Shown here piece by piece: positions 16,579 through 42,120 of a DNA stretch of 45,347 nt (positions are counted from its first letter, which is position 1; every line of letters begins with the position of its first letter). The DNA lies in contig CALCHY010000036.1 of assembly GCA_937907415.1 (NCBI GenBank), positions 1 through 45,347 of the forward strand, written 5' to 3'. The translations under genes and the position numbers were made by a program. The DNA is from an uncultured Trueperaceae bacterium (GTDB lineage Bacteria > Deinococcota > Deinococci > Deinococcales > Trueperaceae). The notes under the pieces are model-generated. The model had not been told where the DNA came from and did no database searches. It was given only the letters and a program-made list of their open reading frames with translations.

Positions 16579-16592
16579 GTCAATCCACCTTC

Positions 16593-16614
16593 GGGGCGCG
16601 GCACGCCGCGCCCC
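16593..16614 (+). terminator. GC hairpin after the set B binding-protein gene
   Basis: GGGGCGCGGC (16593-16602) and GCCGCGCCCC (16605-16614) are perfect ten-base arms. In RNA the loop would be GCACGC with an eight-bp stem. It stands 14 bases after the stop and is not followed by a T-run. Position and lack of a T-run match the hairpins at 9203 and 42060, suggesting a processing or stabilising element within the operon. Confidence 0.7.
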
Positions 16615-16670
16615 GCTATCTTGCTCTGGTCGCACTTTCGGTGCGCCCCATCACGGTCGAGAGGTATAGG

Positions 16671-17618: not shown

Positions 17619-17684
17619 CGGCAATCCCCGCGGAAGGCATCGTGCGGCAACTCGCCCCGGCTCGACAGTGCGCGCGAAGGACCG

Positions 17685-18563: not shown

Positions 18564-19342
18564 TACCCGCCTACCTAGAGCTTGCCCACATGACGCGAGA
18601 AGAACTGAAGGCGCGCGCAGGCGACGCCGTCCTCGTCCTACCGACTGCCGCCACCGAACAGCACGGCCCACACCTTCCGATGGGCACCGACGCGATGATC
18701 GGGGAGGCCGTAGCCCGCGCGGCGCTCGGGCACCTCGACAATAACTATGTGCTTGCCCCAGTTCTGCCTTTCGGGAGCTCACACCATCACCTGATCTACG
18801 GAGCCCTGTCGCTCTCGACAGCGACCTACCTGGCGGGCATATCCGACCTCCTCGCTTCGGCACTGGACTCTGGATTCAGGCGCGTATACGTCCTGAACTC
18901 CCATGGAGGGAACGTCGAGTGCGTCCGCCTCGCCGCCCGCGACACGGCCCTAGACCGCCCCAGTGTGATCGGCAGCTGCTCGTACTGGGACGTCAGCCGC
19001 CCAGCCATTGAGGCCGCCGGCCTCGGGCACACCGGACCGGTACCCGGGCACGCCGGGCAGTTCGAGACGAGTCTCATGCTCCACCTCGCACCTGGGCTCG
19101 TGAAGCTTGACCGAGTGGCAAGCGGTGACCACCGCACCCCGATGGAAGGGCTAGTGAGAACCCCAGGCAGCAGCATCCAGGCGCATGGTGACTGGCAGCG
19201 GACTGGCGGGTTCACAGACGCACCCGAGTACCCGAGTCCCGAACTCGGTCGCGCACTACTACAACTAATTGGCGAGCGCGTAGCGCAAACCCTCACCGAA
19301 TTCGACGCGCTCTCGCGAGCCAGCATTGCGGAGGCAATATGA
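18560..19342 (+). CDS. Creatininase-family metal-dependent hydrolase
   Basis: A 260-residue member of the creatinine amidohydrolase family, which opens cyclic amides or, in some members, cleaves ring C-C bonds or lactone-like substrates. The metal site is complete: E33 and H35 in TEQHGPHLPMGTD, D44, H115 in NSHGGN, E169 in GQFETS. TTG at 18560 overlaps the permease stop (TTGA) and has AGGAG seven bases upstream. With sugar-acid enzymes downstream, a lactone- or keto-inositol-opening role is more plausible than creatinine; a creatininase-family hydrolase (IolN) acts in the Thermotoga inositol pathway, which also ends in KDG enzymes. The exact substrate is not deducible. Confidence 0.85.
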   Translation: MIPAYLELAHMTREELKARAGDAVLVLPTAATEQHGPHLPMGTDAMIGEAVARAALGHLDNNYVLAPVLPFGSSHHHLIYGALSLSTATYLAGISDLLASALDSGFRRVYVLNSHGGNVECVRLAARDTALDRPSVIGSCSYWDVSRPAIEAAGLGHTGPVPGHAGQFETSLMLHLAPGLVKLDRVASGDHRTPMEGLVRTPGSSIQAHGDWQRTGGFTDAPEYPSPELGRALLQLIGERVAQTLTEFDALSRASIAEAI

Positions 19343-20490
19343 GCATCGAACGTATCGACGTCTATCAAGTCGGAGTGCCATTCAGGTCCGTCGTCTCCTG
19401 GGCCTCCGGCGTAAGGTCTGGCACCACGCGCCTCGTCATAAAGGTCACCGCTTCGGATGGCGCCGTCGGATATGGCGAGACGTTCTACCTCCCGTTCGTC
19501 GATGCTGCGCTTAGACAGCAGGTCGTCCCGGTCGTGCTGGGCGAGGACGAGGCAGACATCGAGCGCATCCACCGCAAGATCCTCGGGGCTGGCTTCTACC
19601 ACCACCGCCGCGCCGTCAACTACGCCTCGACCGGTGTGGAGATGGCGCTGTACGACCTTCTAGGTAAGCGAGCAGGCCTGCCGCTATACAAGCTCCTCGG
19701 TGGCAAATACCGAGACCGCATCGAATCGATCGCGTTCATTCCCACACAAGACCCAGACCAACTCGTCAAAGAAGGCCTAGCCGCGGTCAACGACGGCTTC
19801 AGAACCATAAAGATCAAGGTCGGCACCCACCCAGACCTAGATGGCGAACTCGTTAGGCGCCTTCGTGAGGCCGTCGGGCCCGAAGTGCAGATCCGCGCCG
19901 ACCTCAATCAAGCCCTTACAGTCGGCTCGGCCAAGCGCCTTCTACGACGCCTAGAACCGTACGACCTCCAGTACCTGGAACAGCCCCTGCTGCTGACCGA
20001 ACTCGACGCTACTCACGACCTACGGTTGATCACCACCGTGCCCATCGCCCTTGACGAGAGCGCGTACTCCATGGAGGACGTGCTCGAGATTGTGCGCAGG
20101 CGCGCAGCAGACGTCATCCTCGTCGACCCTCACCAGGCCGGCGGCATACTGCCCTGCAAAAAGGCCTCCGCAATCGCCGAAGCTGCAGCGATTCCCGTCG
20201 GCCTCCACAGTGGCGGCGAGTTGGGCCTCTCGATGGCCGCGATGCTCCACTTGGCTGCCTCAACGCCGAACATGCTGTACGCCATCGATAACCAGTACCT
20301 TCACAACTCCGACGACATCATCACGTGTCCCCTAACCGTGGAGGGCGGCTCGTTCAGTGTGCCCGAAGCGCCCGGCCTAGGCGTCGAAGTCGACGAAGCC
20401 AAGCTCGAACAGTACGCGACGACAGAGTTCTACTCACCCTACGGGCGCGCTGACGACCCGAAGTGGTTCGCGCCGAAGCCTGCGTACTAA
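19339..20490 (+). CDS. Enolase-superfamily sugar-acid dehydratase or racemase
   Basis: A 383-residue member of the mandelate racemase/muconate lactonising branch of the enolase superfamily, which abstracts the proton alpha to a carboxylate using Mg2+. Visible site residues: K158-x-K160 (TIKIKVG), Mg ligands D188 (RADLN), E214 (YLEQPL) and D239/E240 (ALDES), then a D263 (ILVDPHQAGG) and H290 (VGLHSGGE) pair typical of the mandelate-racemase subgroup. Together with KDPG aldolase and KDG kinase downstream, the best guess is an aldonate/uronate dehydratase yielding a 2-keto-3-deoxy acid. ATG at 19339 overlaps the previous stop (ATGA). Confidence 0.87.
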   Translation: MSIERIDVYQVGVPFRSVVSWASGVRSGTTRLVIKVTASDGAVGYGETFYLPFVDAALRQQVVPVVLGEDEADIERIHRKILGAGFYHHRRAVNYASTGVEMALYDLLGKRAGLPLYKLLGGKYRDRIESIAFIPTQDPDQLVKEGLAAVNDGFRTIKIKVGTHPDLDGELVRRLREAVGPEVQIRADLNQALTVGSAKRLLRRLEPYDLQYLEQPLLLTELDATHDLRLITTVPIALDESAYSMEDVLEIVRRRAADVILVDPHQAGGILPCKKASAIAEAAAIPVGLHSGGELGLSMAAMLHLAASTPNMLYAIDNQYLHNSDDIITCPLTVEGGSFSVPEAPGLGVEVDEAKLEQYATTEFYSPYGRADDPKWFAPKPAY

Positions 20491-20541
20491 TGGCCACCGG
20501 ACTCGCACGCCGACAAGAGAACGGATCTTAGGGGAAGCCAA

Positions 20542-21012
20542 ATGACGCCTGAGCATCGCCTGGAGAAGCTAGGAATCGAACTACCGGCAGCAGCAACTCC
20601 CGTCGGTCTCTACCAGCCAGTAGTGGTCTCCCGCGGGGTGGCCTACTTATCTGGTCAGGGCCCGACCGTTAACGGGCGACCCGCCTTTTACGGCCAGGTA
20701 GGCGGTGAGCTCACCTTGGACGACGCAACTCAAGCCGCGCGCCTCTGTGCGCTGAACGCTCTTGCAGTGCTGCGCGCCGAGCTCGGCAGCCTTAACCGCG
20801 TGAGGCGCATCGTCAAAGTGTTGGGTTTCATCGCCAGCGCACCAGGTTTCCACCAGCAGCCGATTGTCCTCAACGGCGCCTCAACCCTGTTGAACGACAT
20901 CTTTCCAACCGGCCACGCGCGAAGCGCCATCGGCACGAACCTACTACCGTTCAACATCCCAGTTGAGGTCGAACTCGTGGCAGAACTTGAGGGTGACGTG
21001 GCGCCACAATGA
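20542..21012 (+). CDS. RidA/YjgF-family protein
   Basis: A 156-residue RidA-like protein. Family members are trimeric enamine/imine deaminases or related hydrolases; many act inside specific catabolic operons. Visible: YLSGQGP near residue 37, ARLCALNALAVLRAELGSLNRVRRIVKVLGF in the middle and GHARSAIGTNLLPFNIPVEVELVAEL at the C-terminus, where the Arg normally binds a substrate carboxylate. It belongs to the longer YjgF-like type with an N-terminal extension (ME/HRLEKLGIELP). ATG at 20542 has GGGGAAG four bases upstream. The job in a sugar-acid operon is uncertain: it could tautomerise an enol intermediate from the preceding dehydratase. Confidence 0.88.
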   Translation: MTPEHRLEKLGIELPAAATPVGLYQPVVVSRGVAYLSGQGPTVNGRPAFYGQVGGELTLDDATQAARLCALNALAVLRAELGSLNRVRRIVKVLGFIASAPGFHQQPIVLNGASTLLNDIFPTGHARSAIGTNLLPFNIPVEVELVAELEGDVAPQ

Positions 21013-21665
21013 CCCGTACCGACATACTGGCCAGCATCGAAGCTAGTGCGCTGGTGGCCATCGTCCGGGGTAACTTCCAGCCCGAGCAAGTCCTAGAAAT
21101 CGGCCACGCCCTGGTCCGAGGCGGCATCTCGGCCATCGAAGTCACGCTCAACTCCGACCGCGCCCTCGAGGCTATCTCGCTGCTCGAGCAGAACCTCGGC
21201 GACAACGTCCTCATCGGGGCAGGCACCGTGGTTGCTCCCGACCAAGTCGACGAGGCCGTGGCGGCCGGGGCGCGCTACCTGATTGCGCCAGGGCTCGACA
21301 GCGCCTGCGTCGAGCGGGCCAGGCGCCGCGGCGTACCGTTCATCCCCGGTGTGTTCACTGCAACCGAGATCGGCCTCGCGCTCGCGCACGAGTGCCGGCT
21401 TCTTAAGCTCTTCCCTGCTTCGGAAGTGCGCCCGCAGTACCTTGCGGCCATGCGCGGGCCATTCCCGCAGGCGCGCTTCATGGTCACCGGCGGAATCGGA
21501 CTAGCCGAGATAGCGAAGTATCACCTTGCGGGCGCCACCGCATTTGGCATGGGTTCCAATCTCGTGAAGCACGGGAGGCCGCCGGAGGAGATCGAGGTTA
21601 TAGCTGGCCAGCTCGTTAGAGAGTTGGCTCGCGTGCGGGCCGCCGCCGTGGGGCTTACCTCGTGA
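21009..21665 (+). CDS. eda: 2-Dehydro-3-deoxy-phosphogluconate aldolase
   Basis: A 218-residue class I aldolase that splits KDPG (or KDPGal) to pyruvate and glyceraldehyde 3-phosphate. Hallmarks: AIVRG (R20, phosphate/substrate), IEVTLNS (E44, general acid/base), LIGAGTV, IAPG, FIPGVFTATE, LLKLFPASEV with the Schiff-base lysine K133, and MVTGGIG. All expected catalytic residues are present. ATG overlaps the RidA stop (ATGA). With the kinase that follows, it completes an Entner-Doudoroff-type ending for the operon's substrate. Confidence 0.93.
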   Translation: MTRTDILASIEASALVAIVRGNFQPEQVLEIGHALVRGGISAIEVTLNSDRALEAISLLEQNLGDNVLIGAGTVVAPDQVDEAVAAGARYLIAPGLDSACVERARRRGVPFIPGVFTATEIGLALAHECRLLKLFPASEVRPQYLAAMRGPFPQARFMVTGGIGLAEIAKYHLAGATAFGMGSNLVKHGRPPEEIEVIAGQLVRELARVRAAAVGLTS

Positions 21666-22636
21666 GCGCGACCCCGACTTTCGACGTCACCAGCATCGGG
21701 GAGAGCATGCTCCGCCTATCCGTCCCGCGCGGGGAGCGGCTACCGGGAGCGCAGCAGTTCCAATCTCACGTTGGGGGCGCCGAATCTAACGTTCTAGCGG
21801 CATTGTCAGGCTTGGGCAGACGAACAGCTTGGCACAGTCAACTGCCGGACAACGCGCTAGGCCTGGCCGCACTCAGGCAAATCCGGGCTGCTGGCGTAGA
21901 CACCGCGTCGGTAACTTTGGAGCAAACCGGCGGTCGCATGGGCCTCTACTTCTATGAACCGCCAACCGGCCCATTGCTTGGCGAGGTGATATACGACCGG
22001 GCGGGCTCATCCTTCTCTCGCATCGATTCCACCTTCGTCAACTGGAACCGACTGCTGGATACTCGCGTCCTTCACCTAACCGGAATCACTCCAGCCCTCG
22101 GGCCACGCTGCCGCGAACTGACTGTCCGGGCAATCGACATGGCCAACGATGCAGGGGTTCTAGTCTCACTTGACGTCAATTACCGCCGCAGGCTGTGGTC
22201 AGCAAGCGAGGCCGCCGAGGTGCTGGTGCCACTCTTCTCCAAAGTCAGCCTGCTGATTTGCGGCGTGGAAGATGCGCGTGCGCTTCTGGGCGCCAACGGC
22301 GACCCGATCACGATCTTGAGGCGGCTAGGTGAGGCGGCCGACGGACGCGACGTCGTACTCACGCGCGGCGCACAAGGAGCGATTGCTCTGGTTGGCGGTA
22401 AGAGGCTGACCGTCCCGGCCGTCGAGGTAGAGCCGCTCGATGAGCTGGGCGGCGGCGACGCGTTCGCCGCTGGACTCCTGGATGGGTGGCTTGAAGGAAG
22501 CCTCGAAGTAGGGCTGAGGCAAGGCGCCATGCTCGCGGCGGCGAAGCTAACTCAACGCGGGGACATGGTGACACTATCTCGCAAGGAGCTAACTGAGCGC
22601 TTGAGCGCCCGAACAACCGGCCGCATTCTGCGCTAG
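21662..22636 (+). CDS. kdgK: PfkB-family 2-keto-3-deoxygluconate kinase
   Basis: A 324-residue ribokinase-family sugar kinase, likely phosphorylating KDG to KDPG for the preceding aldolase. N-terminal IGESMLRLSVPRGERLPGAQQFQSHVGGAESNVLAALSGLG is close to known KDG kinases. The C-terminal signature DELGGGDAFAAGLLDG (about residues 258-273) includes the catalytic Asp and anion hole. GTG at 21662 overlaps the aldolase stop by four bases. Last gene of operon B. The assignment as KDG and not another sugar kinase rests partly on the neighbour. Confidence 0.88.
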   Translation: MSATPTFDVTSIGESMLRLSVPRGERLPGAQQFQSHVGGAESNVLAALSGLGRRTAWHSQLPDNALGLAALRQIRAAGVDTASVTLEQTGGRMGLYFYEPPTGPLLGEVIYDRAGSSFSRIDSTFVNWNRLLDTRVLHLTGITPALGPRCRELTVRAIDMANDAGVLVSLDVNYRRRLWSASEAAEVLVPLFSKVSLLICGVEDARALLGANGDPITILRRLGEAADGRDVVLTRGAQGAIALVGGKRLTVPAVEVEPLDELGGGDAFAAGLLDGWLEGSLEVGLRQGAMLAAAKLTQRGDMVTLSRKELTERLSARTTGRILR

Positions 22637-24599: not shown

Positions 24600-25496
24600 T
24601 CAATTAGCACGCGAGTCCAACGCTTCTCCGAGCCAGTCGCCGAAGATGTTGATTGACAGCACGATGATACTGATCGCGAGGCCAGGGAATAGCGCCGGCC
24701 ACCAGGCGATGAAGATCTGTTGCTGCGCTTCGCTCAGCATTCCGCCCCAGCTTGCTACGTCCGGCGGCACGCCAAGACCCAGGAAGCTCAATCCGGCCTC
24801 CTGAAGCATGAACCTGGCCGCTTGGAGAGTGGCAAGAATAACGATCGAGGTAGTCACGTTCGGGAGAATATGCCTGAACGCAATTCTTGCCTCGGAGCAG
24901 CCAAGGGCCCTCGCTGCCTCTGAAAAGTCTCGCTCGCGTAGGGATAGTACTTCAGCCCTCACTACTCGTGCATAATCAACCCAGCCCGAAACGGCCAGTA
25001 CGATCACCAAGTTCACGATGCTCGGCCCAATGGCTGCGACTATCGCGATAGCAAGCATGATGCTCGGGAAAGAAAGCTGCACGTCCGTGAGACGCATGAT
25101 CAGGTTGTCTACAGACGTGAAGAACCCAGACAACAGGCCCAATACGCCGCCGACAACCGCCGCGAGCAGCACCGCGACCAGGCTGACCGTAATAGAAATA
25201 CGGCCGCCATGCAAAGTTCGGCTCAATACGTCCCGGCCTTGATGATCCGTGCCGAACGGGTGTTCCATTGATGGCGGCAACAAGCGGACTCGAAGGTCCC
25301 TAGTGTTCGGCCCAGGTATAGGCAAAACAGGCGCGACGACAGATAAGAGACCCACGACCACCAGGACCACCATGCTTAGAAAGGCCGGTTTGTTCCTCCA
25401 CACCTTTGTCAAATGCCGTAATCGACCGTTACCCGCTCTGCGCCGAGGTGGCGCATCGACCACGATCACCGAGTGCTCCACGATGTTATCGACCAT
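24600..25496 (-). CDS. DppC-type ABC permease (set E)
   Basis: A 298-residue permease with a basic N-terminal tail (PPRRRAGNGRLRHLTKVWRNK), first helix FLSMVVLVVVGLLSVVAPV, DppC signature PFGTDHQGRDVLSRTLHGGRISI near residue 81, EAA loop DFSEAARALGCSEARIAFRHILPN and the ending NIFGDWLGEALDSRAN. The coupling loop is intact. Six bases separate its ATG from the stop of the partner permease. No ATPase gene follows; the next gene is a serine hydrolase. Confidence 0.92.
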   Translation of the reverse strand: MVDNIVEHSVIVVDAPPRRRAGNGRLRHLTKVWRNKPAFLSMVVLVVVGLLSVVAPVLPIPGPNTRDLRVRLLPPSMEHPFGTDHQGRDVLSRTLHGGRISITVSLVAVLLAAVVGGVLGLLSGFFTSVDNLIMRLTDVQLSFPSIMLAIAIVAAIGPSIVNLVIVLAVSGWVDYARVVRAEVLSLRERDFSEAARALGCSEARIAFRHILPNVTTSIVILATLQAARFMLQEAGLSFLGLGVPPDVASWGGMLSEAQQQIFIAWWPALFPGLAISIIVLSINIFGDWLGEALDSRAN

Positions 25497-25502
25497 CGCA
25501 CA

Positions 25503-26420
25503 TCACTGATACCGAATCCTTGGGTCTAGTACGGAGTAAAGCAAATCGATGAGAAAATTTATTACGAGGAACACTATCGCAGTAAAAAACACCGCAGCCT
25601 GAACCACAGGGTAATCACGGTTTAGAACTGCCTGTATCATAAGCCTGCCCAAACCCGGCCATGCGAATACTGTCTCAGTGATTACCGAGCCGCCGAGCAG
25701 CACTCCAACTTGAATGCCGAGCAGCGTCAGTACTGGCAAGAAGGCGTTGCGCATGCCATGTCGAATCACCATGATCCTTCGCGTAACGCCTTTGGCTGTC
25801 GCCGTACGAATGTAATCCTGGCGCAAGACTTCTGACAAGTTTGCCCGCAAGAGCCGCGTCAGTGCTGCCGCCGAATATAAGCCCAGCGTTATCGAAGGCA
25901 AAATCAGGCTACGCCAGCCACTGAAACCGTAGGTTGGAACAAGACTCAGCCTTACGGCGAATACGTAGATCATCATGATTGCGAGAAAGAAGCCCGGCAC
26001 CGCTTGCCCAACTAGTGCAAGCACAGTTGCGACCCTATCCCACACCGAATCCTTCTTGACGGCCGCTAGTACACCTAGCGGGATCGCTACCAATAGCGTG
26101 ACCAAGAGTGCTCCGCCTGTAAGGATCGCCGTTGCTGGCACTCGCTCCAACACCACGCTCATGGCTGGTGAGCGATAGCGGAACGATTCGCCGAAGTCGC
26201 CGGCGACTATCCCTCGCAGGAAGTCTAGGTACTGGCTTATTAGGGGCCGATCGAAGCCCATGATGTGACGGAATCTCTCAACGTCCTCGGGCGTCGCCTC
26301 TAGTGGCAACATCAAGGAGGTCGGGTCTCCGGAAAGGTGGAGGATCATGAACACCATGACCGTAATGCCGGCCAAGCTCACGACCCCCCACCAAGCCCGT
26401 CGTGCCACGTAGTGGATCAA
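25503..26420 (-). CDS. DppB-type ABC permease (set E)
   Basis: A 305-residue permease. N-terminal helix GVVSLAGITVMVFMILHLSG, then DPTSLMLPLEATPEDVERFRHIMGFDRPLISQYLDFL, EAA loop DYIRTATAKGVTRRIMVIRHGMRNAF, and a C-terminus ending LLYSVLDPRIRYQ. The start is TTG at 26420 with AGG eight bases upstream. It follows the substrate-binding protein gene by 74 bases, a gap that holds only a small hairpin (CCCG/CGGG at 26449-26459). Confidence 0.92.
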   Translation of the reverse strand: MIHYVARRAWWGVVSLAGITVMVFMILHLSGDPTSLMLPLEATPEDVERFRHIMGFDRPLISQYLDFLRGIVAGDFGESFRYRSPAMSVVLERVPATAILTGGALLVTLLVAIPLGVLAAVKKDSVWDRVATVLALVGQAVPGFFLAIMMIYVFAVRLSLVPTYGFSGWRSLILPSITLGLYSAAALTRLLRANLSEVLRQDYIRTATAKGVTRRIMVIRHGMRNAFLPVLTLLGIQVGVLLGGSVITETVFAWPGLGRLMIQAVLNRDYPVVQAAVFFTAIVFLVINFLIDLLYSVLDPRIRYQ

Positions 26421-26494: not shown

Positions 26495-28018
26495 TTAGTC
26501 CGCGACATCCACGCCGGACATGTTTAGGATCTGGTTGTTCGGGACTTGCCAGATTACGCGCTTGTTCACGCCGAACACTTCATCCGCCTGCGCGAGGTAA
26601 ACCCACGGCGCCTGCTCATGCAGGATTCCAAGCGCCTGCTGAATCAACGAGCGCCGCGTTTCCACGTCAACTTCAGACTTCAGGTCGGTGATGATTCCAT
26701 CGAGCTCGGGGCTGCTGTACTTGGTGCGTGGGTTGCCCGTAAGGAAGAAGGTGTCGATGAGTACAGTCGGCTCACCCTGCCAGAGCGTGTAACCAAGGTC
26801 CCAAAGAGGTGGGAGCTCTCCCTTGCCGTACTTGTCGCTGTACTCTGCTGCTGGCAAGCGGCTAAGGTTCGATCGTATGCCAACCTGCTCCAGCATGCCG
26901 GTTACGGCCACTGCGATGTCTTCGTAAATCCCGGGGCGCGTCGCAAAGTCAATCGTAAACCCGTCGGAGTAGCCAGCCTCTGCAAGCAGTTCTCGCGCAC
27001 GCTCCGGGTCGTACGCGTAGGGCTCGAGCGACGGATCGTAACCAAAGTTGGCGCTGGCTACTGGGGCAGCGATGCGCTTGCCCTTACCGCCGAAGAGTTC
27101 AGAGATGAGAAGTTCGGTATCTACGGCGTAGCTGATAGCTTGTCGAACACGCACGTCGGCCGTTGGCCCAGTCGGGTAGGCAGTCGACAGGTAGAAGATG
27201 CGGAGCCCTTCCGCGCTATCGACGCGCGTTGCCGGGTTGGCTTCAACGGTTGAGATGAAATCCGCAGGGAGGGTGGCTGCGATATCTACCTCGCCAGCCA
27301 GCAGGGCCGCCATGCGGCCAGCATCGCTTGGGATGCCAACGAACGTTACGCGGTCGAGGGCAGGTGCTCCTCGCCAATAGTCTTCATTCCGCTCAAGAGT
27401 GAGGTGATCATCTTTAACCCACTCGACGAACTTGAAGGGGCCCGTTCCGACGGGATGGCTAGCGAAGTAGGACGCGCCGTTGGTTTCAATATAATCCGCC
27501 GGCACGATGGCCCCACCAAAGAGGGTCAGCTTCGCCGGGACAATCGGATCGACGACATTGGTGTGAATGTCAACGGTGTGTGCGTCAACTACCTCGACGC
27601 TTTCAAAGGTACGGAACTCTTGAATTGGGGACTTGGTCTCTGGGTTCATGACGCGCTCGATGCTGTACTTCACAGTCTCCGGAGTCAGCGGTTCTCCGTT
27701 GTGGAAGAGCACCCCTTCTCGGAGCGTGAACCTCCACGTAGTGCCATCAATGTTCTCCCACGAGGTGGCAAGGTTCGGTTGAATTTCGCCAGAAGCATCT
27801 CGTGTAAGGAGCGTGTCGTAGATGTTGATCAGGACGGCCATGTCGGGCATGTCGCCAGTCAGGTGGACGTCAAGTGTGCTTAGGTTTGCGGCCTGTGCAA
27901 CTACGACGCTCTTCTGGGCTAGGGCCGTCGAGAAGAACAGGATTGACATGGCCATTAACGCAAACCATAGTTTTGAGGGCCCTCGGGTCATTCTTTGACG
28001 TGCGGTCGTAATCGTCAT
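26495..28018 (-). CDS. ABC transporter substrate-binding protein, family 5 (set E)
   Basis: A 507-residue solute-binding protein from ATG at 28018, preceded by AAAGG eight bases upstream. A longer frame to 28099 adds a segment unlike a signal peptide and overlaps the upstream gene. The signal peptide runs through KLWFALMAMSILFFSTALA|QKS (cleavage near residue 34). Family hallmarks: AQAANLSTLDVHLTGDMPD, WRFTLREGVLFHNGEPLTPETVKYSIERV, VGTGPFKFVEWVKDDHLTLERNEDYWRG and ADVRVRQAISYAVD. It lies 49 bases after the UxaA-type gene of the same operon, so its ligand is probably a sugar acid or related compound; peptides cannot be excluded because a serine hydrolase also belongs to the operon. Confidence 0.92.
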   Translation of the reverse strand: MTITTARQRMTRGPSKLWFALMAMSILFFSTALAQKSVVVAQAANLSTLDVHLTGDMPDMAVLINIYDTLLTRDASGEIQPNLATSWENIDGTTWRFTLREGVLFHNGEPLTPETVKYSIERVMNPETKSPIQEFRTFESVEVVDAHTVDIHTNVVDPIVPAKLTLFGGAIVPADYIETNGASYFASHPVGTGPFKFVEWVKDDHLTLERNEDYWRGAPALDRVTFVGIPSDAGRMAALLAGEVDIAATLPADFISTVEANPATRVDSAEGLRIFYLSTAYPTGPTADVRVRQAISYAVDTELLISELFGGKGKRIAAPVASANFGYDPSLEPYAYDPERARELLAEAGYSDGFTIDFATRPGIYEDIAVAVTGMLEQVGIRSNLSRLPAAEYSDKYGKGELPPLWDLGYTLWQGEPTVLIDTFFLTGNPRTKYSSPELDGIITDLKSEVDVETRRSLIQQALGILHEQAPWVYLAQADEVFGVNKRVIWQVPNNQILNMSGVDVAD

Positions 28019-28067: not shown

Positions 28068-29204
28068 TCATAAGGTCGCACCAATTCGTGGAATAGCAAG
28101 TTCTTGGCCAGCCCAACGTTCGGAGCTTGTTTTAGCGCCCGCGACCACCTCCTCCAAACTCAGAAGAATCCTTTGAGAGATAGCGTCCATGTCGAGATCG
28201 ACGGACGCGTCGACGTCGTAAACGTCCGGCATCGCGGAGTACGTCTTGGCTGAGCCGGCGACTTTCAAGACGGGCAAGACGGGGGGAGAGTAGAGGCTCG
28301 GACGTGTCGAGCCGTGGATCAGTACATGAGTTCCCGCGGTGATGAGGCCAGCACCCACGAAGAGGTCCTCCCGCGGCGAGTCCATCAACCACACCCCAGG
28401 ACCCGTTGGGATCTCGCCATACTCAAGTACACCTCGCAATCCCCGTGTGCCTAGACGCTGAAGGGGGCCGCTCGTCGAGCCATCTGTGTTGTGCTTCGGA
28501 GGCGACGTATGACTGAGTGCGTAAGCAGCGCCAAGGTCTTCGAGCTGTGTGGCGCGCTCGTCCGCTATTGAGAGCCAACGCTCTCGTTGCTGGGGGTCGT
28601 CAAACATATCGGCTACAAACTGCGGCTCCGCGATGAAGGGCCACGTTTCGGCGATAATGATCGTCGCGTTCAATCCCGCTAGGAAATCTACTAGTGCCCC
28701 GAACGCCTGGCTAATCTTGGAGTTTGTCTCCGGTAGGTCATCGGATACTCGAAACGCTACCGTAAGGTCCGACCACGTTCCGGGCACCATTTGTGTGTTT
28801 GTCATCGAAGCAGTTAGGGACCGGGCTTCTTCAACTCCGCTATCTACGGCGCTCGACGTGCCGCCGGACCCTTGGATCGTGAGATGGTTTAGGCGCTTCT
28901 GGCGCACGGCAGAGACTATGGTCTCGGGAGGCTGTTGTTCACATCCAAGCCCGACGAGGAGGGCTGCTCCTACGTTCGGGCTAGACGCAATGCCAACCAA
29001 CAGGTCGACTGTCCTTCGCCTGTCTTGGCCGAGTTGCAGGCACCCGGCGTCATGGGCAATTACCTCGGCTTGTAAGCTCTGCGCAATCTTGGTAGCCACA
29101 ACGTTCGAGCAAACGACGGTTGAGACTACGGCAAGATGATTGCGAATACCACGCGCACCATTTGGACGCTCAAATAGGTTGAATGAGGCCGACGATGCGA
29201 TCAC
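28068..29204 (-). CDS. UxaA-type large subunit, partly degenerate (copy 2)
   Basis: This is the C-terminal (large) module of altronate/galactarate dehydratase-type enzymes, 378 residues from GTG at 29204, which follows the upstream TAA by two bases. The frame stays open to 29255. N-terminal FNLFERPNGARGIRNHLAVVSTVVCSN and C-terminal ELAIPRIGATL align with the neighbour's RPDGRVGVRNHVAVI and EYALPRSGTVL. It keeps HDAGCLQLGQD (H51, C55, Q57) and LLVGLGCEQ (C88, E89), which are normal for the family. The other hallmark, usually GLKCGGSDxxSGxxxNPxxG, has become VAFRVSDDLPETNSK (around 149-163). It may be a non-catalytic or half-site partner of the next gene upstream. Confidence 0.75.
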   Translation of the reverse strand: MIASSASFNLFERPNGARGIRNHLAVVSTVVCSNVVATKIAQSLQAEVIAHDAGCLQLGQDRRRTVDLLVGIASSPNVGAALLVGLGCEQQPPETIVSAVRQKRLNHLTIQGSGGTSSAVDSGVEEARSLTASMTNTQMVPGTWSDLTVAFRVSDDLPETNSKISQAFGALVDFLAGLNATIIIAETWPFIAEPQFVADMFDDPQQRERWLSIADERATQLEDLGAAYALSHTSPPKHNTDGSTSGPLQRLGTRGLRGVLEYGEIPTGPGVWLMDSPREDLFVGAGLITAGTHVLIHGSTRPSLYSPPVLPVLKVAGSAKTYSAMPDVYDVDASVDLDMDAISQRILLSLEEVVAGAKTSSERWAGQELAIPRIGATL

Positions 29205-29206
29205 GA

Positions 29207-30352
29207 TTACAGCACCGTCCCCGACCTTGGTAGGGCGTACTCGGTGTGGCCCCACCGCTCGGCCTTCGTAAGCGCGCCATTGGCGATTGCCACCCAGTGA
29301 TTGAAGATCTCCCGGCCGACCTGCTCAAGGGACCTCTCACCCGTAATGACTGTGCCTGCATTGATGTCCATGTTGTGAGACATTCGCGTGTAATTCTCGG
29401 GATTCCCCATGATTTTCTGGACTGGCGTCAGTGGTGCGCCTAACGGGCTCCCGCGTCCGGTCGTGAATGCCTCAATCTGGGCCCCCCCGGATACTGGTCC
29501 CGCGACCGAGTAGACATCAAGTCCTGGAGTATCCATGATCACGACGCCTTTTGTTCGAATTTCTTCACCGAATGCGATAACCGCCTGAATGGGCCTAGAG
29601 CCACACTTCTTTATGGTCCCCAAGCTCTTCTCGGCAAGGGTCGTCAGTCCACCTTCGATGTTGCCGGGGCTGGGGTTTCCTTGGGCAAGGCTCATTCCCA
29701 AGGCCAACGCGTCTCGTTCCACCTTGTCGACGATCTCGTAAATGCGCCGAGCAACCTCGGGGTTCACAGCTCTTCCGGCGAGTATGAACTCTGCCCCGTA
29801 GATTCCACTTGTTTCGGTTAGAACGGCGGTTCCACCGTAGTCGACAAGAATGTCGCATGCCGCACCAAGCGCCGGATTACAGGACAAACCAGACATCGAG
29901 TCCGATCCGCCGCACTTTAGTCCCACGTGGAGTTCGCTCACGGGGGTAGACACGCGGACATCGCCGCCTAAGCGAGCCGTGAAGTCACGGACAGCTTCAA
30001 TCGCGCTATCAACTGCACCGCGCGCACCGCCACCGTTGGCTAGCGAAACCACTTTGAAGGGCTTGCCGTTGACCCCGTCTGCAATTCCTGAGCACGTAAA
30101 GTCATCGAGGCCCACCAAGACCACAGCACCCGCGTTTGGATGGTTGGCCATGCCGCGAAGGGAACGCAACACCAACTCAGCATCGGGTCCGGCCAGGTAG
30201 TCATCGTGATCGTGAGTGACGGGTTGCGCCCCTGTCTCCGCGGCTACCTTCCTCACTATGGCGTTTACCGACGCCTCGCAGGCGATGACCGCCACATGGT
30301 TCCGCACCCCGACGCGACCATCCGGCCTAGGGAAGCCGTTGAAGGTCGTCAT
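29207..30352 (-). CDS. UxaA-type dehydratase large subunit (copy 1)
   Basis: A 381-residue large subunit of the UxaA/GarD/SuyB family; members dehydrate sugar acids or remove sulfite from sulfolactate, usually with iron. It has the strong hallmark LHVGLKCGGSDSMSGLSCNPALGAACD (residues 141-167) and TETSGIYGAEFIL. Two other family motifs are altered: the usual H-x-x-GC-x-Q reads HDHDDYLAG (47-55) and the usual GLGCE reads GLDDF (81-85). These are exactly the motifs kept in copy 2. ATG at 30352 overlaps the SAF-subunit stop (ATGA). The separate small subunit resembles the split SuyA/SuyB arrangement, but the pathway context favours a sugar acid. Confidence 0.85.
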   Translation of the reverse strand: MTTFNGFPRPDGRVGVRNHVAVIACEASVNAIVRKVAAETGAQPVTHDHDDYLAGPDAELVLRSLRGMANHPNAGAVVLVGLDDFTCSGIADGVNGKPFKVVSLANGGGARGAVDSAIEAVRDFTARLGGDVRVSTPVSELHVGLKCGGSDSMSGLSCNPALGAACDILVDYGGTAVLTETSGIYGAEFILAGRAVNPEVARRIYEIVDKVERDALALGMSLAQGNPSPGNIEGGLTTLAEKSLGTIKKCGSRPIQAVIAFGEEIRTKGVVIMDTPGLDVYSVAGPVSGGAQIEAFTTGRGSPLGAPLTPVQKIMGNPENYTRMSHNMDINAGTVITGERSLEQVGREIFNHWVAIANGALTKAERWGHTEYALPRSGTVL

Positions 30353-30690
30353 TCGTTACCTCCGATGTTCGCCCTAATATCCGGGGAGGGTTGGTGGCGG
30401 CCATCCATACGCACCTCGTCGACAATGTCTCGCACGTTGTGCACGTGAACGTGAGCGCCAGGCGGAATCGCCTCGGTAGCAATACCCACGTGCGCACCGT
30501 ATTTCACGACATAGGCGCCCTTCGCGATCGCGGCAGTAGCAAACTTATGACCAAAAGCAATGTCTCCCACAAGCTGGATGAGAGCGCCGTTTACAGGGAC
30601 GGTCATTCCCGCCTGAAGCGCTTGTAACGCTACGGCCACGTTGTCATCGTCATTGATTTTCAAGACGCGAATCGATCCAGACTGGTCCAT
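30349..30690 (-). CDS. SAF-domain small subunit of a UxaA-type dehydratase
   Basis: A 113-residue protein matching the N-terminal SAF module of altronate dehydratase, which in split enzymes is a separate small subunit (SuyA-like). Visible: LKINDDDNVAVALQALQAGMTVPV, IAFGHKFATAAIAKGAYVVKYGAHVGIATEAIPPGAHVHVHNV, the typical GHKxAxxxIxxGxxVxKYGxxIGxAxxxIxxGxxVHxHN pattern. The start is ATG at 30690, overlapping the IclR stop (TGATG); the frame is open further to 30792 but lies inside the IclR gene. It forms the enzyme with one or both large subunits downstream. Confidence 0.9.
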   Translation of the reverse strand: MDQSGSIRVLKINDDDNVAVALQALQAGMTVPVNGALIQLVGDIAFGHKFATAAIAKGAYVVKYGAHVGIATEAIPPGAHVHVHNVRDIVDEVRMDGRHQPSPDIRANIGGNE

Positions 30691-31493
30691 CAACTGACCT
30701 CCAACGGCAATGGTTCCGCCACTGCGACATGGCCCAGATGTTGGGATACTTCTGATGCTGCGCTCTTGATGACCGCCCGTAGGGTCGCCCAATGGTCTGG
30801 AGTTGCGCGATGGATTGGTACGGAGAAACTAATCGCGGCGACGATCTTGCCGTCGCCTCCACGTACTGGGGCCGCTACGCAGCACAACCCTTCGGACACT
30901 TCTTGCCAATCCTCCGCAGCGCCTTGCGTCCGTACTTTGCCTAGTGCAGCCAGTAGCTCCTCGATTGTCCCTATGGTGCGCCCCGTCAGAGGCCGCATCT
31001 CTACACCATCGAGGCGCGAACGCACTTCCGACTCATCCATTTCTGCCAGTAGGCACTTACCGAGCGCGGTGGCGTAAGTGGGCAGGCGTTGCCCGACGTC
31101 CGACACGAGGCGGATGGGGTGATTACACTCTTGCTTCGCGACGTAGACAACGTCAGATCCGTCAAGTACTGCCATCTGCATTGTCTCTTGCACATCGTCA
31201 ACAATTCGGCGGCTTAGGGCGTCGAACGCCCTAACCGGATTCTGCTGCAGCATTTGCTGTCGGACGAGGCCATAAATCTTCGGCGCCAGAGCGTACTCCA
31301 CGCCCCCGCCGTCGGATACGAGATAGCCCGCATCCTCCATTGTCTTCAAGATGGGGAACAGACTGGACTTAGAACAATCCAAGTCGCGACTTAGCGCCGC
31401 CAGGGACACCGGTCGATCAGATCGCGCCAGGAGTTCAATGACCGCTAACGTGCGCCACGTCGTCCGATTGTGATACCTAGATTCGGCAGCCAT
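30690..31493 (-). CDS. IclR-family transcriptional regulator (operon E, first gene)
   Basis: A 267-residue IclR regulator. The winged helix-turn-helix (TLAVIELLARSDRPVSLAALSRDLDCSKSSLFPILKTMEDAGYLV) occupies residues 15-60, and the GAF-like effector domain follows: QMAVLDGSDVVYVAKQE, LPTYATALGKCLLAEM, GLCCVAAPVRGGDGKIVAAISFSVP. It is unusual among the three IclR genes here in being the first gene of the operon it probably controls, overlapping the SAF subunit start by TGATG. A strong promoter and repeated TTCGTCT elements lie just upstream, suggesting autoregulation. ATG at 31493. Confidence 0.9.
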   Translation of the reverse strand: MAAESRYHNRTTWRTLAVIELLARSDRPVSLAALSRDLDCSKSSLFPILKTMEDAGYLVSDGGGVEYALAPKIYGLVRQQMLQQNPVRAFDALSRRIVDDVQETMQMAVLDGSDVVYVAKQECNHPIRLVSDVGQRLPTYATALGKCLLAEMDESEVRSRLDGVEMRPLTGRTIGTIEELLAALGKVRTQGAAEDWQEVSEGLCCVAAPVRGGDGKIVAAISFSVPIHRATPDHWATLRAVIKSAASEVSQHLGHVAVAEPLPLEVS

Positions 31494-31923: not shown

Positions 31924-33000
31924 GTGGGAGAGTCCTTGGAGCAGGTCGCTCACAGCCTGCATGATCGCTTGTTCGTGGCAAATGTCCACGGCGATTACGG
32001 AATCGAGTTCGCTCTCGAGCGCGAGGAACATCAAGCGCGCGCCATCGTCAAGAACCGCTATCTGCCCTTGCTTCGAGATGGTGGCGTGAACTTTGAGTTC
32101 TACACGGTCGGTGGGGACCACAGGATTTTCACCCAGGACGACGACCTGACCCGAGGCACGTTCCGTTCGATAGACCACGCACTCCAAGAGCTCGAGGTCG
32201 AGTCCGACGAAAGCGTCATTGTTCGCCGTTTTGCCGATATTGAGGACGCTCGTAGAGCGGGCAAGTTCGCGTTTCTGCTAACCATCGAGGGCGCCGCCCC
32301 ACTCCAGAACGATCTCAGCATCCTCCGCAACTATTACCGTCTTGGACTCCGGTCGGTAATTCTCACTTGGTTTAAGAGCAACCCTTCTGCGGACGGCGTC
32401 GCCGAAGAGCGAAACGGTGGACTAACCAACTTTGGCCAAGAACTCGTGCGCGAGATGAACCGCCTTGGGATGCTCATCGATATCTGCCAATGCGCGCCGC
32501 AGACCGTGGAAGATGTCTTGGAAGCTTCCACTCATCCGGTAATCTCCTCTCATTCGAATGCTGCCGGCCTATACGATCACCCACGTAACTTGACCGACTC
32601 CCAGCTCAAGAAACTAGCAGCTGGCGGCGGCGTAATCGGCGTAACGTCCTTCCCAGCGCATGTTGGCCGTGGCAAGGTGAGCATTGAAGATTTCCTTGAT
32701 CACATCGATTACATCACCAACCTTATCGGCGACGACCATTTGGCCATCGGCCTCAACATCGTCGTTCACAAGGCCTCGCGTGCTCAGAACTTCTATCGAA
32801 ATTCGGACATCGAGTACTCTGACTTGTGGCTGCCAGGCCTAGAAGATGTCGATAAGATGGGGGCAATAACGCTCGGTCTCCTCAAACGAGGCTATGGCGA
32901 AGATCGCATCGCCAAGATCCTGGGTGGCAACATTTCTCGGGTTTTGAGCCAGGTCCTACCAGCTCAGAGCGATGCACCAATGGAAGCAGCGGGGGCCTAA
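31924..33000 (+). CDS. M19 dipeptidase-like protein with an altered second metal site
   Basis: A 358-residue M19 homologue (barrel segments LGLRSVILTWFKSNPSADG, GLTNFGQELVREMNRLGMLID, SSHSNAAGLYDHPRNLTD). Unlike the three operon A paralogues it keeps the first-site ligands H22-x-D24 (ANVHGDYG) and the bridging E122 (LTIEGAAP). Two other ligands are replaced: the usual D-x-x-H reads DICQC (Q189) and the usual G-x-D reads GLNIV (N278). H210 is kept. The start is uncertain: GTG 31924 directly abuts an AAGGAG, and TTG 31936 has GGAG at a better distance. It lies in a sugar-acid locus next to an FAH-fold enzyme, so it may be repurposed rather than a dipeptidase. Confidence 0.75.
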   Translation: MGESLEQVAHSLHDRLFVANVHGDYGIEFALEREEHQARAIVKNRYLPLLRDGGVNFEFYTVGGDHRIFTQDDDLTRGTFRSIDHALQELEVESDESVIVRRFADIEDARRAGKFAFLLTIEGAAPLQNDLSILRNYYRLGLRSVILTWFKSNPSADGVAEERNGGLTNFGQELVREMNRLGMLIDICQCAPQTVEDVLEASTHPVISSHSNAAGLYDHPRNLTDSQLKKLAAGGGVIGVTSFPAHVGRGKVSIEDFLDHIDYITNLIGDDHLAIGLNIVVHKASRAQNFYRNSDIEYSDLWLPGLEDVDKMGAITLGLLKRGYGEDRIAKILGGNISRVLSQVLPAQSDAPMEAAGA

Positions 33001-35678: not shown

Positions 35679-36308
35679 GTGGTCTCGGTAACGCACCCCG
35701 AAGCGCCCGACCGGTTCGAGGCTGACGCCCTTAGTGCGCTCTTTGATGTGCCGCTGGCGGACCTAACAGGGAAAGTCAATGTCGCTGACATAGACGCGGC
35801 CTTAGCGGCGGCTCGATTTGCGCCTTCAGCAGCCAACCTGCAACCGTGGACGTTCATTCGAGTAACCCAGAGCGAGACCGTCCGGCTGATCGCTGAGAAC
35901 TCCCTCAATTCACTTGGACTGCCAATGCCCAACCACCGGAACGAGGCTATGGCCCAGGTCGCACACCTAGTTCTCGTGTGCTCCAACGTGCTGCGGGCCA
36001 AGTGCCGGTTTGGTGAGCGTGGCTTGGGGTTTTACGCCGTGCAAGACATCGCGGTCGCAGCCCACACGGTGCGCCTTGCGGCGCTAGCGAGGGGTATTTC
36101 CAGCCACTGGGTCCGCGAGCTTGACTTTGAGGCATTGAATCTTGAACTCGGCCTAGCGCCTCGCTTCGGACTACAAGCAGTCCTGGCGTTCGGTAAGGCC
36201 AATACGAAGCGCCTTGAACGCCCTCCTCAGCTAGATGCCAAGTACTTCGTGCGAGTGGAGGGCGATGCTCGTGCGGTCGGCGCACTGACCGCGAGGTTGC
36301 CGTCATGA
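35679..36308 (+). CDS. Nitroreductase-family protein 1
   Basis: A 209-residue FMN-dependent nitroreductase-fold protein. The FMN-binding signature APSAANLQPWTFIRVT (near residue 48) is clear, and the C-terminal half carries VQDIAVAAHTVRLAALARGISSHWVRELDFEALNLELGLAP. The usual N-terminal RRSxR phosphate-binding arginines are not obvious: the N-terminus reads FEADALSALFDVPLADL. GTG at 35679 starts five bases after the racemase stop. It overlaps the next nitroreductase by four bases (ATGA), so the two may form a heterodimer in which the missing arginines are supplied by the partner; this is inference. Confidence 0.8.
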   Translation: MVSVTHPEAPDRFEADALSALFDVPLADLTGKVNVADIDAALAAARFAPSAANLQPWTFIRVTQSETVRLIAENSLNSLGLPMPNHRNEAMAQVAHLVLVCSNVLRAKCRFGERGLGFYAVQDIAVAAHTVRLAALARGISSHWVRELDFEALNLELGLAPRFGLQAVLAFGKANTKRLERPPQLDAKYFVRVEGDARAVGALTARLPS

Positions 36309-36847
36309 GCTTGCCAGCACTCGAAGCCATCAAGCTCAGGCGCACCGTGCGCAGCTTCAAACCAGACCCGGTCCCCTCCGACCTGTTCCAGCAGGTGCTT
36401 CAAGCGGGGCTGCACGCTCCCACCAGCGGTAACTTGCAACCGTGGGAGTTCTTCAGGGTCGTAACACCCACGGTGCGCGAGCAACTGGTGGCCAGCACCT
36501 TCGGAGGCTACTCACAGTCCGCACCGTCGCAAGCGTGGCTACTCGAAGCCCCCGAGATTATCGCGGCTTGCTGTGACACGGTGCGCACAATGGCGCGATA
36601 CGGCGAGGATGGCCAGCGCTACGCACGACTAGATGTTGCCGCGGCCATACAGAACATGCTAATCGCAGCCACGTCGCTGGGTTTGGGCGCCGCCTGGATT
36701 GGCGGCTATCGAGAGCCCGAGGTCCGTGCCGCACTTGACCTCGATCCCGACCTCGACATAGTTGGCCTCGTGGCGTTCGGTTACGCACGAGAGAGTCTGG
36801 CCGCGCCCTACCGCATGCCTCTTAGCGACGTCCTGAGGGAGATTTAA
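36305..36847 (+). CDS. Nitroreductase-family protein 2
   Basis: A 180-residue nitroreductase-fold flavoprotein with the complete signature set: IKLRRTVRSFKPDPV (residues 9-23, FMN phosphate-binding arginines), APTSGNLQPWEFFRVV (near 38), DVAAAIQNMLIAATSLGLGAAWIGG (near 109) and LVAFGYA. It resembles the small oxidoreductases that reduce or oxidise nitro, quinone or enamide substrates. Translationally coupled to the preceding paralogue and only five bases ahead of the permease gene. Its substrate is unknown. In a peptide operon, oxidation of a peptide or cyclic dipeptide, or reduction of dehydro-amino acids, are possibilities. Confidence 0.87.
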   Translation: MSLPALEAIKLRRTVRSFKPDPVPSDLFQQVLQAGLHAPTSGNLQPWEFFRVVTPTVREQLVASTFGGYSQSAPSQAWLLEAPEIIAACCDTVRTMARYGEDGQRYARLDVAAAIQNMLIAATSLGLGAAWIGGYREPEVRAALDLDPDLDIVGLVAFGYARESLAAPYRMPLSDVLREI

Positions 36848-37843: not shown

Positions 37844-38683
37844 ATGCCCAAGATGATCAAGCGTTTCCTGCGCAACCCCAGCGCCATGGTGGGCATTGCG
37901 ATAAGCGTGTTCGTGCTCTTGGTGGCCTTGTTGGCACCTGTACTTGTGCTTGAGGACCCTACCCAGATCGACTTCGGGAAGCTGAGCCAAAAACTCGAGA
38001 AGCCCGGAGTAACGACCATCCTTGGTCGCGATAACTTTGGCCGCGATCTCTACTCCCGCATCGTCATGGGTGCCCGGGTGAGTCTGCTGGTAGGCACTTC
38101 GGCCGTAGCGCTCGGCATGATTGTGGGTAGTCTCTTCGGGCTACTAGCAGGTTTCTTTGGCGGTTGGTTCGACGAGGTCATAATGCGCGTTACCGATATC
38201 CTCTACGCGTTCCCGGCCATCTTGTTGGCGTTGGCGTTGGTGGCGGCGCTGGGTCCAAGCCTCTCCAACTTGGTGTTTGCCATCTCATTCGTCTCCATCC
38301 CCGGTTTTGCTCGTGTGATGCGCAGTTCAGCGGTCACCGTGCGCGGCTCCGAGATGGTGGAGGCTGCTCGGTCCAGTGGGGTGCGCACCCTGCGGATCAT
38401 CTTCAAATACGTGTTGCCCAACGCAGTTACCCCCACGATCGTGTACGCCGCAATTTCACTAGCAAGCGCCCTGCTCACCGAGGCGGGTTTGTCGTTTCTC
38501 GGCCTCGGCGTTCAGCCGCCAACGCCCTCATGGGGCGGCATTCTCGCGGAAGGCCGGGAGTTCCTCCGCACCGCTCCTTACATGACCAATTTCGCAGGTC
38601 TGGCAATCCTCATTACTGTCGTGGGCTTCAACCTCTTGGGTGACGGTGTGCGCGACGTACTCGATCCACGCAACGCCTCATGA
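37844..38683 (+). CDS. DppC-type ABC permease (set F)
   Basis: A 279-residue permease. I take ATG at 37844 (MPKMIKRFLRNPSAMVGIAIS) with GAGG eight bases upstream; an open extension to 37808 lies inside the partner gene. DppC signature ILGRDNFGRDLYSRIVMGARVSL near residue 63 (R replaces the usual T of LGTD), EAA loop EMVEAARSSGVRTLRIIFKYVLPN, and the C-terminus LLGDGVRDVLDPRNAS. The next gene is a prolyl-iminopeptidase-like hydrolase 22 bases on. No ATPase gene follows. Confidence 0.92.
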   Translation: MPKMIKRFLRNPSAMVGIAISVFVLLVALLAPVLVLEDPTQIDFGKLSQKLEKPGVTTILGRDNFGRDLYSRIVMGARVSLLVGTSAVALGMIVGSLFGLLAGFFGGWFDEVIMRVTDILYAFPAILLALALVAALGPSLSNLVFAISFVSIPGFARVMRSSAVTVRGSEMVEAARSSGVRTLRIIFKYVLPNAVTPTIVYAAISLASALLTEAGLSFLGLGVQPPTPSWGGILAEGREFLRTAPYMTNFAGLAILITVVGFNLLGDGVRDVLDPRNAS

Positions 38684-38705
38684 ACAACAGAACTGGAGAA
38701 GCATT

Positions 38706-39551
38706 ATGAACAAGCTACTGATAAATGGCGTGAAGCTGCCGGTAGACGTACAGGGATCAGGTAACGAACGGCTCTTCATCGGCCATCACGGTGCACCGGG
38801 CCTCTCGAGTCACGCTGAACCTAAGAACGCGTTCGGCAAGCTAGCAGAAAAGTTGAAGGTAGTCACATTTGACGCGCGCGGTAGCGGCGATTCAGATTAC
38901 GTAGGCCCTTACACGCACGCACAATGGGTGGCCGACGTTGACGCCATCCGGGCGCACTTCGGTGCCGAGCGCTTCGTGATGGGTGGCGGTTCGTACGGCG
39001 GCTTCCTCACGCTCGAGTACGCGCTGGCTCACCCGAATCGAGTGGAGGCCTTGGTGCTCCGCGACACCGCTGCCCGCAGCTACGACGCCGAGGCCAAGCG
39101 CAACGCACTGGCCCGCGCCACGGAGTTCCCTTGGCTTACGCCCGCCCTGGTCGAACGCGCCTTGGGCGGAGAGTTCCGCGACAACGACGAGTTCCGAGAG
39201 ATGTACGGGGCCATCTTGCCCTTGTACGACGTGAACTACGACCCGGCAAAGGGCGCAGAGAAGCTAGACCGCATTAAGTTCAACTACAAGGCCGACAACT
39301 ACGCCTTCTCACACAACCTCCCCAACTACGACGTCCGGGACCGGCTGCAGGAGATAACTGTGCCCGTTCTCATAACCGTTGGTCGTCATGACTGGATAAC
39401 CCCGGTTGAGGCGAGCGAGGAGATGCATGCCCTCCTACCCAACAGTGAGCTGGCCATCTTCGAGAACTCCGGCCATTCGCCGCAAGTAGAGGAGCACGAC
39501 GCGTGGTTTGCAACCGTGCGGGACTTCCTTGATCGTCACGGGCTGCTCTAA
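38706..39551 (+). CDS. Prolyl-iminopeptidase-like alpha/beta hydrolase, copy 1
   Basis: A 281-residue S33-type alpha/beta hydrolase. Catalytic triad: S96 in GGGSYGGF, D229 in GRHDWITP, H257 in NSGHSPQVEE; HHGAPG (27-32) supplies the oxyanion hole as in proline iminopeptidases. ATG at 38706 with GGAGAAG about nine bases upstream; the longer frame from 38640 lies in the permease gene. It probably removes N-terminal residues, often proline, from imported peptides in the cytoplasm, as no signal peptide is present. It is nearly the same as the copy at 42121 over long stretches (for example NERLFIGHHGAPGLSSHAEPK). Confidence 0.88.
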   Translation: MNKLLINGVKLPVDVQGSGNERLFIGHHGAPGLSSHAEPKNAFGKLAEKLKVVTFDARGSGDSDYVGPYTHAQWVADVDAIRAHFGAERFVMGGGSYGGFLTLEYALAHPNRVEALVLRDTAARSYDAEAKRNALARATEFPWLTPALVERALGGEFRDNDEFREMYGAILPLYDVNYDPAKGAEKLDRIKFNYKADNYAFSHNLPNYDVRDRLQEITVPVLITVGRHDWITPVEASEEMHALLPNSELAIFENSGHSPQVEEHDAWFATVRDFLDRHGLL

Positions 39552-39574
39552 GCCTACGTAGAAGGAGAGTGCAG

Positions 39575-42085: not shown

Positions 42086-42120
42086 ACCTTTCGCCCTACG
42101 GCGGTTCAATTGGAGGATTG

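Follow-up and report, generated by a model that had tools for sequence, protein, structure and literature searches.

A putative dehydratase of the UxaA/GarD superfamily with its conserved cysteines and motifs divided between two large chains

Organization of the locus

The genes considered here lie in a stretch of 45,347 nucleotides from an uncultured Trueperaceae bacterium, which in its entirety is referred to below as the window. Along its minus strand an IclR-type regulator is followed by a gene for a SAF-domain small subunit, and by two adjacent genes for UxaA-type large chains, copy 1 and copy 2 (chains A and B); then come a solute-binding protein of family 5 and a pair of ABC permeases (Table 1). 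The start codon of the SAF gene (ATG at 30690) overlaps the stop codon of the regulator, the SAF stop and the copy 1 start overlap by 4 bases, and copy 2 begins with GTG two bases past the copy 1 stop. The solute-binding protein is probably encoded in the same transcription unit as the dehydratase genes. The first-pass annotation of this DNA had already placed the two large chains side by side, two bases apart and with a single SAF gene in common, and its coordinates were recovered unchanged.

Table 1. Positions of the genes and cysteine codons discussed in the text
Feature	Position in the window	Strand	Domain match or remark
IclR-type regulator, operon head	30690..31493	-	PF01614 and PF09339
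SAF-domain small subunit	30349..30690	-	PF08666, 32.5 bits
Large chain A (copy 1)	29207..30352	-	domain-3 motifs intact, without the domain-2 cysteines of the family
C147 codon of chain A	29912..29914	-	KCGGSD; fourth family cysteine
Large chain B (copy 2)	28068..29204	-	domain-2 cysteines intact, domain-3 active loops lost
C32 codon of chain B	29109..29111	-	first domain-2 cysteine
C55 codon of chain B	29040..29042	-	HDAGC; second domain-2 cysteine
C88 codon of chain B	28941..28943	-	GLGCE; third domain-2 cysteine
Family-5 solute-binding protein	26495..28018	-	PF00496; ATG at 28018 from the sequence
Two ABC permease genes (span 24600..26420)	25503-26420 and 24600-25496	-	PF00528
PfkB kinase	21662-22636		
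KDPG/KHG aldolase	21009-21665		
Enolase-type protein	19339-20490		

Both large chains score above the gathering thresholds of PF04295 and PF20629. The balance between the second and the C-terminal domain of galactarate/altronate dehydratase is opposite in the two, with 77 and 294 bits for copy 1 and 107 and 84 bits for copy 2. Scored singly, the chains reach 206.9 and 44.8 bits against TIGR03248, the NCBIfam equivalog model for GarD, which spans the fused three-domain protein and has a cut-off of 730.85. Both are full-length, and the GarD fold is predicted with confidence for each. The full-motif chains examined are often fused to the SAF domain, whereas the window encodes two large chains and a separate SAF protein.

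Other genes in the window were also noted. An operon of sugar-acid-like content (15064-22636) encodes parts of a family-5 ABC transporter along with creatininase-family, enolase-type and YjgF proteins, a KDPG/KHG aldolase and a PfkB kinase; the aldolase, kinase and enolase-type genes suit sugar-acid catabolism, but they belong to another operon than the dehydratase. Elsewhere we observed four M19 dipeptidase genes (4979-9170 and 31924-33000), two of them with an AstE/AspA-type gene between them (7054-8124), and a family-5 solute-binding protein surrounded by three alpha/beta hydrolase genes (38640-40414 and 42118-42969). Two nitroreductase-family genes that adjoin and overlap (35679-36847) may be a further diverged pair, with scores of 56 and 117 bits for one and the same Pfam model, and a ParB-family gene (2628-3938) may hint at a plasmid or origin region.

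Reciprocal division of the conserved residues

A study by Watanabe and colleagues describes a D-arabinonate dehydratase of this family as brown and as giving ferric EPR signals (PMC6336799). The same study reports four cysteines that are conserved in the family except in sulfolactate sulfo-lyase and proposes them as iron-binding (PMC6336799, 2019); in the Herbaspirillum huttiense D-arabinonate dehydratase C785_RS13685 the proposed ligands are Cys134, 173, 208 and 276 (PMC6336799). Their spacing of 39/35/68 residues is nearly equal to the 36/35/68 of the family cysteines in the relative L212, and we therefore take the four family cysteines to be those proposed ligands (PMC6336799). C785_RS13685 has all four on one chain, whereas in the window they are divided three and one over two chains. 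The full-motif chains examined, of the kind of Escherichia coli D-galactarate dehydratase GarD (PDB 6u7l) and altronate dehydratase UxaA, likewise unite the four cysteines and the domain-3 motifs in one polypeptide.

To score conservation we used as reference the 381 of 389 chains that passed a test for three scored cysteine motifs; the eight dropped were P0008, P0099, P0100, P0150, P0267, P0280, one L063 chain and the L170 chain. Positions shared by at least 93% of the 381 chains were taken as invariant; domain 2, counted from its first cysteine, has 10 of them and domain 3 has 39. Cysteines account for four: domain 2 contributes three, and domain 3 contributes C147, numbered as in copy 1. 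The first domain-2 cysteine, which played no part in the selection, is present in 380 of the 381 chains.

The first-pass annotation had pointed out that copy 1 keeps KCGGSD while having HDHDDYLAG and GLDDF in place of the other family motifs, and that copy 2 keeps HDAGCLQ and GLGCE while having VAFRVSDD. We find the motifs exactly as described there, and alignment with the 381 full-motif chains answers its concern that the lost motifs might lie at shifted positions: they are absent at their own columns. Copy 1 is devoid of the domain-2 residues, the GC of GLGCE being deleted, and copy 2 has neither CGGSD nor the NPSPGN...EKSLG loop. The first domain-2 cysteine forms a fourth hallmark that the annotation had missed, namely C32 of copy 2, with no cysteine in the corresponding column of copy 1. 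Thus, copy 2 holds the three cysteines of domain 2, which are the only ones in its 378 residues, and copy 1 holds only the fourth, in domain 3. The complete set of four cysteines that characterizes a single chain of the UxaA/GarD superfamily is found in neither copy, only in the two jointly. In the models, read for secondary structure, the motif loops come after the ends of strands in both domains, so that either domain could form half of a pocket.

Separate genes for the SAF domain and the large chain are also a feature of sulfolactate sulfo-lyase SuyAB. However, SuyAB has one large chain, whereas two follow the SAF gene of the window, and the second of the two carries the cysteines missing from the first. 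The SuyAB cysteines fall outside the conservation seen elsewhere in the family (PMC6336799), a state that copy 1 shares.

The division is kept in metagenomic orthologues: in all six of copy 1 (P0117-P0122, 67-73% identical, besides the near-copy P0116) and, where covered, in all seven of copy 2 (P0002-P0008, 48-57% identical, besides the near-copy P0001), P0008 being a fragment that starts behind the first domain-2 cysteine and so is without that region. Its retention in six and seven diverged orthologues is more than chance would give. The copy-2 orthologues have from two cysteines (the fragment P0008) to seven. Copy 1 and its six orthologues retain on average 2.7 of the 10 domain-2 invariants and 38.3 of the 39 in domain 3; for copy 2 and six orthologues the values are 10 of 10 and 17.6 of 39. 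In all eight copy-2 sequences the altered loop HGSxRxxLYSPP (residues 297-308), which replaces TTGRG, is invariant, and the domain-3 half of copy 2 may thus have a function outside the model proposed below. We had also considered the loss of N231 and K242 as a marker of every B chain and dropped it, since the region is gapped in B and its columns shift between alignments: the N231 column of copy 2 holds N in one alignment and S in another, and one haloarchaeal B chain has K in the K242 column. Erosion of domain 3 was accordingly scored over all 39 invariants.

The longest contigs are alike (26101, 16698, 22963 and 4298 bases) in four copy-1 and four copy-2 clusters, and we read these four cluster pairs as coming from the same contigs. 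The other contigs provide no test of co-occurrence, being short for copy 2 (2429, 1889 and 4407 bases) and for two of copy 1 (3235 and 3505), while on the contig of the near-copy P0116 (27103) copy 2 was not identified. As a control, all 81 chains from 80 genome loci drawn with copy 1 have a cysteine in each scored motif, one of them reading LGCQ; GLKCGGSD was part of the search pattern, which leaves motifs 1 and 2 as the unbiased part of this control. The best of these 80 loci, taken from at least 592 stretches, is 45% identical to copy 1, and a scan of genome contigs with copy 2 gave no relative; as far as the search patterns reach, no close orthologue of either was thus found in the genome collection. 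A search of viral contigs gave no match.

Haloarchaeal triples

A search of plasmids with copy 2 led to adjacent large-SAF-large genes on haloarchaeal megaplasmids. With a haloarchaeal B chain as query, 28 plasmid records were retrieved, of which 16, all haloarchaeal, are at least 48% identical and the other 12 are 26-34% identical; a haloarchaeal A query returned the same 16 at 70% or more, the next best match being at 48%. The A-SAF-B triple is contiguous in all 16 records, one of which (L124) has a small hypothetical gene annotated where the B open frame begins. These triples, annotated only as UxaA family hydrolase, show the same reciprocal split as the window pair in every record: each A chain has none of the three domain-2 cysteines and keeps the fourth, and each B chain has all three and no CGGSD, although in three B chains from near-identical Haladaptatus strains a cysteine stands in the fourth column with the motif absent. 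They differ from the window, where the order is SAF-A-B, in gene order, and in the manner of the loss: most haloarchaeal A chains read HQMGTxQ and LGTE, with the cysteines replaced, whereas in copy 1 they are deleted.

Both chains are under purifying selection in haloarchaea. In six pairs dN/dS is 0.08-0.17 for A and 0.07-0.27 for B, the L133-L137 pair being too similar to carry weight, and for B it stays below 1 in both domains in all six comparisons (highest value 0.41). Frequent neighbours are dihydrodipicolinate-synthase-like aldolases, mannonate dehydratases, enolase-type proteins and fumarylacetoacetate hydrolases, genes typical of sugar-acid breakdown.

Chloroflexota and other bacteria

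We searched samples of bacterial genomes whose phylum names are inferred from the named locus used as the centre of each. Among 400 genomes of the phylum of a Dehalococcoidia genome, taken as Chloroflexota, 64 matched a B-type profile at 1e-40 or better; the chains of 24 of the 64 were examined, and the counts are therefore lower bounds. A B-type chain is present in at least 11 genomes, eight of which also encode an A-type chain. B and A are adjacent in two (G700 and G658), a SAF-B-A set is adjacent in a third (G802), and the other five (G579, G651, G635, G547 and G707) have the two chains on separate contigs. In the remaining three (G603, G728 and G735), genomes of unstated completeness, no A chain was found; in G735 the B gene is located 244 bases from a contig end. 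Seven of the first eight B-type genomes have a SAF gene, with none found in G547, and it lies near B in G802, G707 and G735. The B chains are eroded to different degrees: three (331-332 residues) have lost the EKSLG region of domain 3, and the other eight retain 30-31 of the 39 domain-3 invariants together with C147. Some of these partly eroded chains may still act alone.

Elsewhere full-motif chains prevail among the loci examined. The 15 best loci from the Actinomycetota sample (346 genomes, 32 matching at 1e-50) are all full-motif, as are 11 of 15 from the Pseudomonadota sample (349 genomes, 59 matching), the other four being single chains without domain-2 cysteines. Two Bacillota samples consisted mostly of the same genomes; all 30 loci examined from them have a cysteine at each scored motif, and P0128, P0201 and their kin are not among them. 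These belong to a clade of large chains without domain-2 cysteines (P0128, P0137, P0154, P0162, P0178, P0201 and P0214), two of them named from Alicyclobacillus.

Comparison of all lineages

Scored by the same invariants, the two kinds of chain fall into ranges that do not overlap. All 26 A chains (seven of the copy-1 group, 11 of the 16 haloarchaeal and eight Chloroflexota) are without a domain-2 cysteine and retain 2-6 of the 10 domain-2 and 37-39 of the 39 domain-3 invariants. All 31 B chains (seven of the copy-2 group, 11 of the 16 haloarchaeal, P0098, P0285 and 11 Chloroflexota) have the complete 10 in domain 2 and 13-31 in domain 3. Twelve further chains without domain-2 cysteines (one keeps the third) and with no known partner have 28-39 of the domain-3 invariants.

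The pairing foreseen in the first-pass annotation is borne out by the 16 haloarchaeal triples and the eight of 11 Chloroflexota genomes. Its corollary that neither copy should occur alone with the SAF subunit fares less well. In three relatives (L127, L229 and L231), all of them distant, a single large chain without domain-2 cysteines is found next to a SAF gene or in its vicinity, and the stretch examined has no other large chain; the three Chloroflexota genomes noted above have B with no A detected. Five single chains without domain-2 cysteines (L213, L218, L220, L223 and L231) share HPYGRLQ, a GIE variant of GLGCE and KCGESD, and are possibly of the SuyB type.

Origin of the split

In tests on trees, all of them quick trees, that left out the chains of G802, G707 and G735, a single clade was rejected for all A chains (p 5.3e-5), for all B chains (p 0.0137) and for the Chloroflexota A chains (p 0.021), which argues for at least two origins of the split. 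When motif columns are omitted, a single group (99, starred) takes in 13 of the 15 Chloroflexota A and B rows and stands next to full-motif chains from that sample; A and B of G700 are sisters (96). Copy 2 grouped with haloarchaeal B in three trees, without strong support; in a fourth it did not, and haloarchaeal A and B came together (84), with the long G802 B row beside haloarchaeal B and the G802 A row beside P0159. A grouping of copy 1 with haloarchaeal A was not rejected in two tests (p 0.077 and 0.188), nor was one of copy 1 with copy 2 (p 0.296), the tree behind the values of 0.077 and 0.296 being without five long rows. A later tree was without 27 rows of the first set and the near-copies L159, L165 and L169.

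Discussion

We propose, with a probability of roughly 0.72, that the products of the three genes assemble into a single heteromeric dehydratase of the UxaA/GarD superfamily, made up of A, B and the SAF protein, with a predicted active site shared between chains. To judge from the recurrence of the split, the two large chains probably work only as a pair. Chain B would supply the iron-binding domain 2 with its three cysteines, chain A the domain-3 loops KCGGSD, NPSPGN...EKSLG and TTGRG along with the fourth cysteine, and the SAF protein the small domain. One complete active site would then form in trans, B giving its domain 2 and A its domain 3, and the reverse combination, domain 2 of A with domain 3 of B, would be dead or serve another role. 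Complex formation, the site in trans and sugar-acid dehydration as the reaction are what we infer from these patterns. The second domain reportedly forms the dimer interface in the GarD structure, which would suit a site in trans. By analogy with the characterised relative, the family cysteines would bind iron, in which case three ligands would be on B and one on A; it is an equally good reading that the three B cysteines hold the cluster and C147 of A is nearby. The recurrence of the split in haloarchaea and Chloroflexota agrees with what would be expected of an obligate heteromer with a composite site. In titles and the openings of abstracts, within a literature that leaves out most subscription journals, a search for a UxaA-type enzyme with two large chains returned no report.

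The lone A-like chains near SAF genes in distant relatives raise the alternative that chain A and the SAF protein are a complete enzyme without an iron site, as SuyAB may be, with B a regulatory or structural pseudo-subunit. The exception of sulfolactate sulfo-lyase from cysteine conservation (PMC6336799) points the same way. Yet B keeps all 10 domain-2 invariants, the three cysteines among them, in each of the 31 chains scored, which a mere scaffold would not need, and in the 16 plasmid records neither A nor B is seen without the other; we consider this alternative unlikely.

Still less probable, in our estimation, is that A and B are co-regulated by chance and act independently, as two enzymes or homo-oligomers each with a new reaction of its own. 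Each chain is full-length and by prediction a well-folded GarD-type protein, copy 2 has its own invariant replacement motifs, and five Chloroflexota genomes have A and B on different contigs; against this, one SAF gene accompanies both chains in the window, as it does in each of the 16 haloarchaeal triples, and the complementary losses fall on identical cysteine positions in lineages that do not group as a single clade. The loss of 20 to 25 of the 39 domain-3 invariants in the copy-2 group might be taken for the decay of a duplicate, an explanation that we find hardly credible given that copy 2 has an open frame and seven diverged orthologues with invariant motifs, and that haloarchaeal B evolves under constraint in both domains.

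The sites of iron binding and catalysis in this widespread family seem poorly defined in the accessible literature, and natural pairs that divide the conserved residues alike in separate lineages would show which residues belong together and predict a site between chains. A broader proposal, to which we give about even odds, is that in the family domain 2 of a given chain faces domain 3 of a different chain, and that the homo-oligomer has become a hetero-oligomer on several occasions, with B dedicated to iron binding and A to the substrate; a widespread and hitherto unnoticed haloarchaeal enzyme would be among the outcomes. On that proposal, the split pairs would reveal which family residues lie on either side of the active site. 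The pairs would offer a testable case of the passage from a homo-oligomeric enzyme to an obligate hetero-oligomer, and a probable function for gene sets that are annotated only as UxaA family hydrolase.
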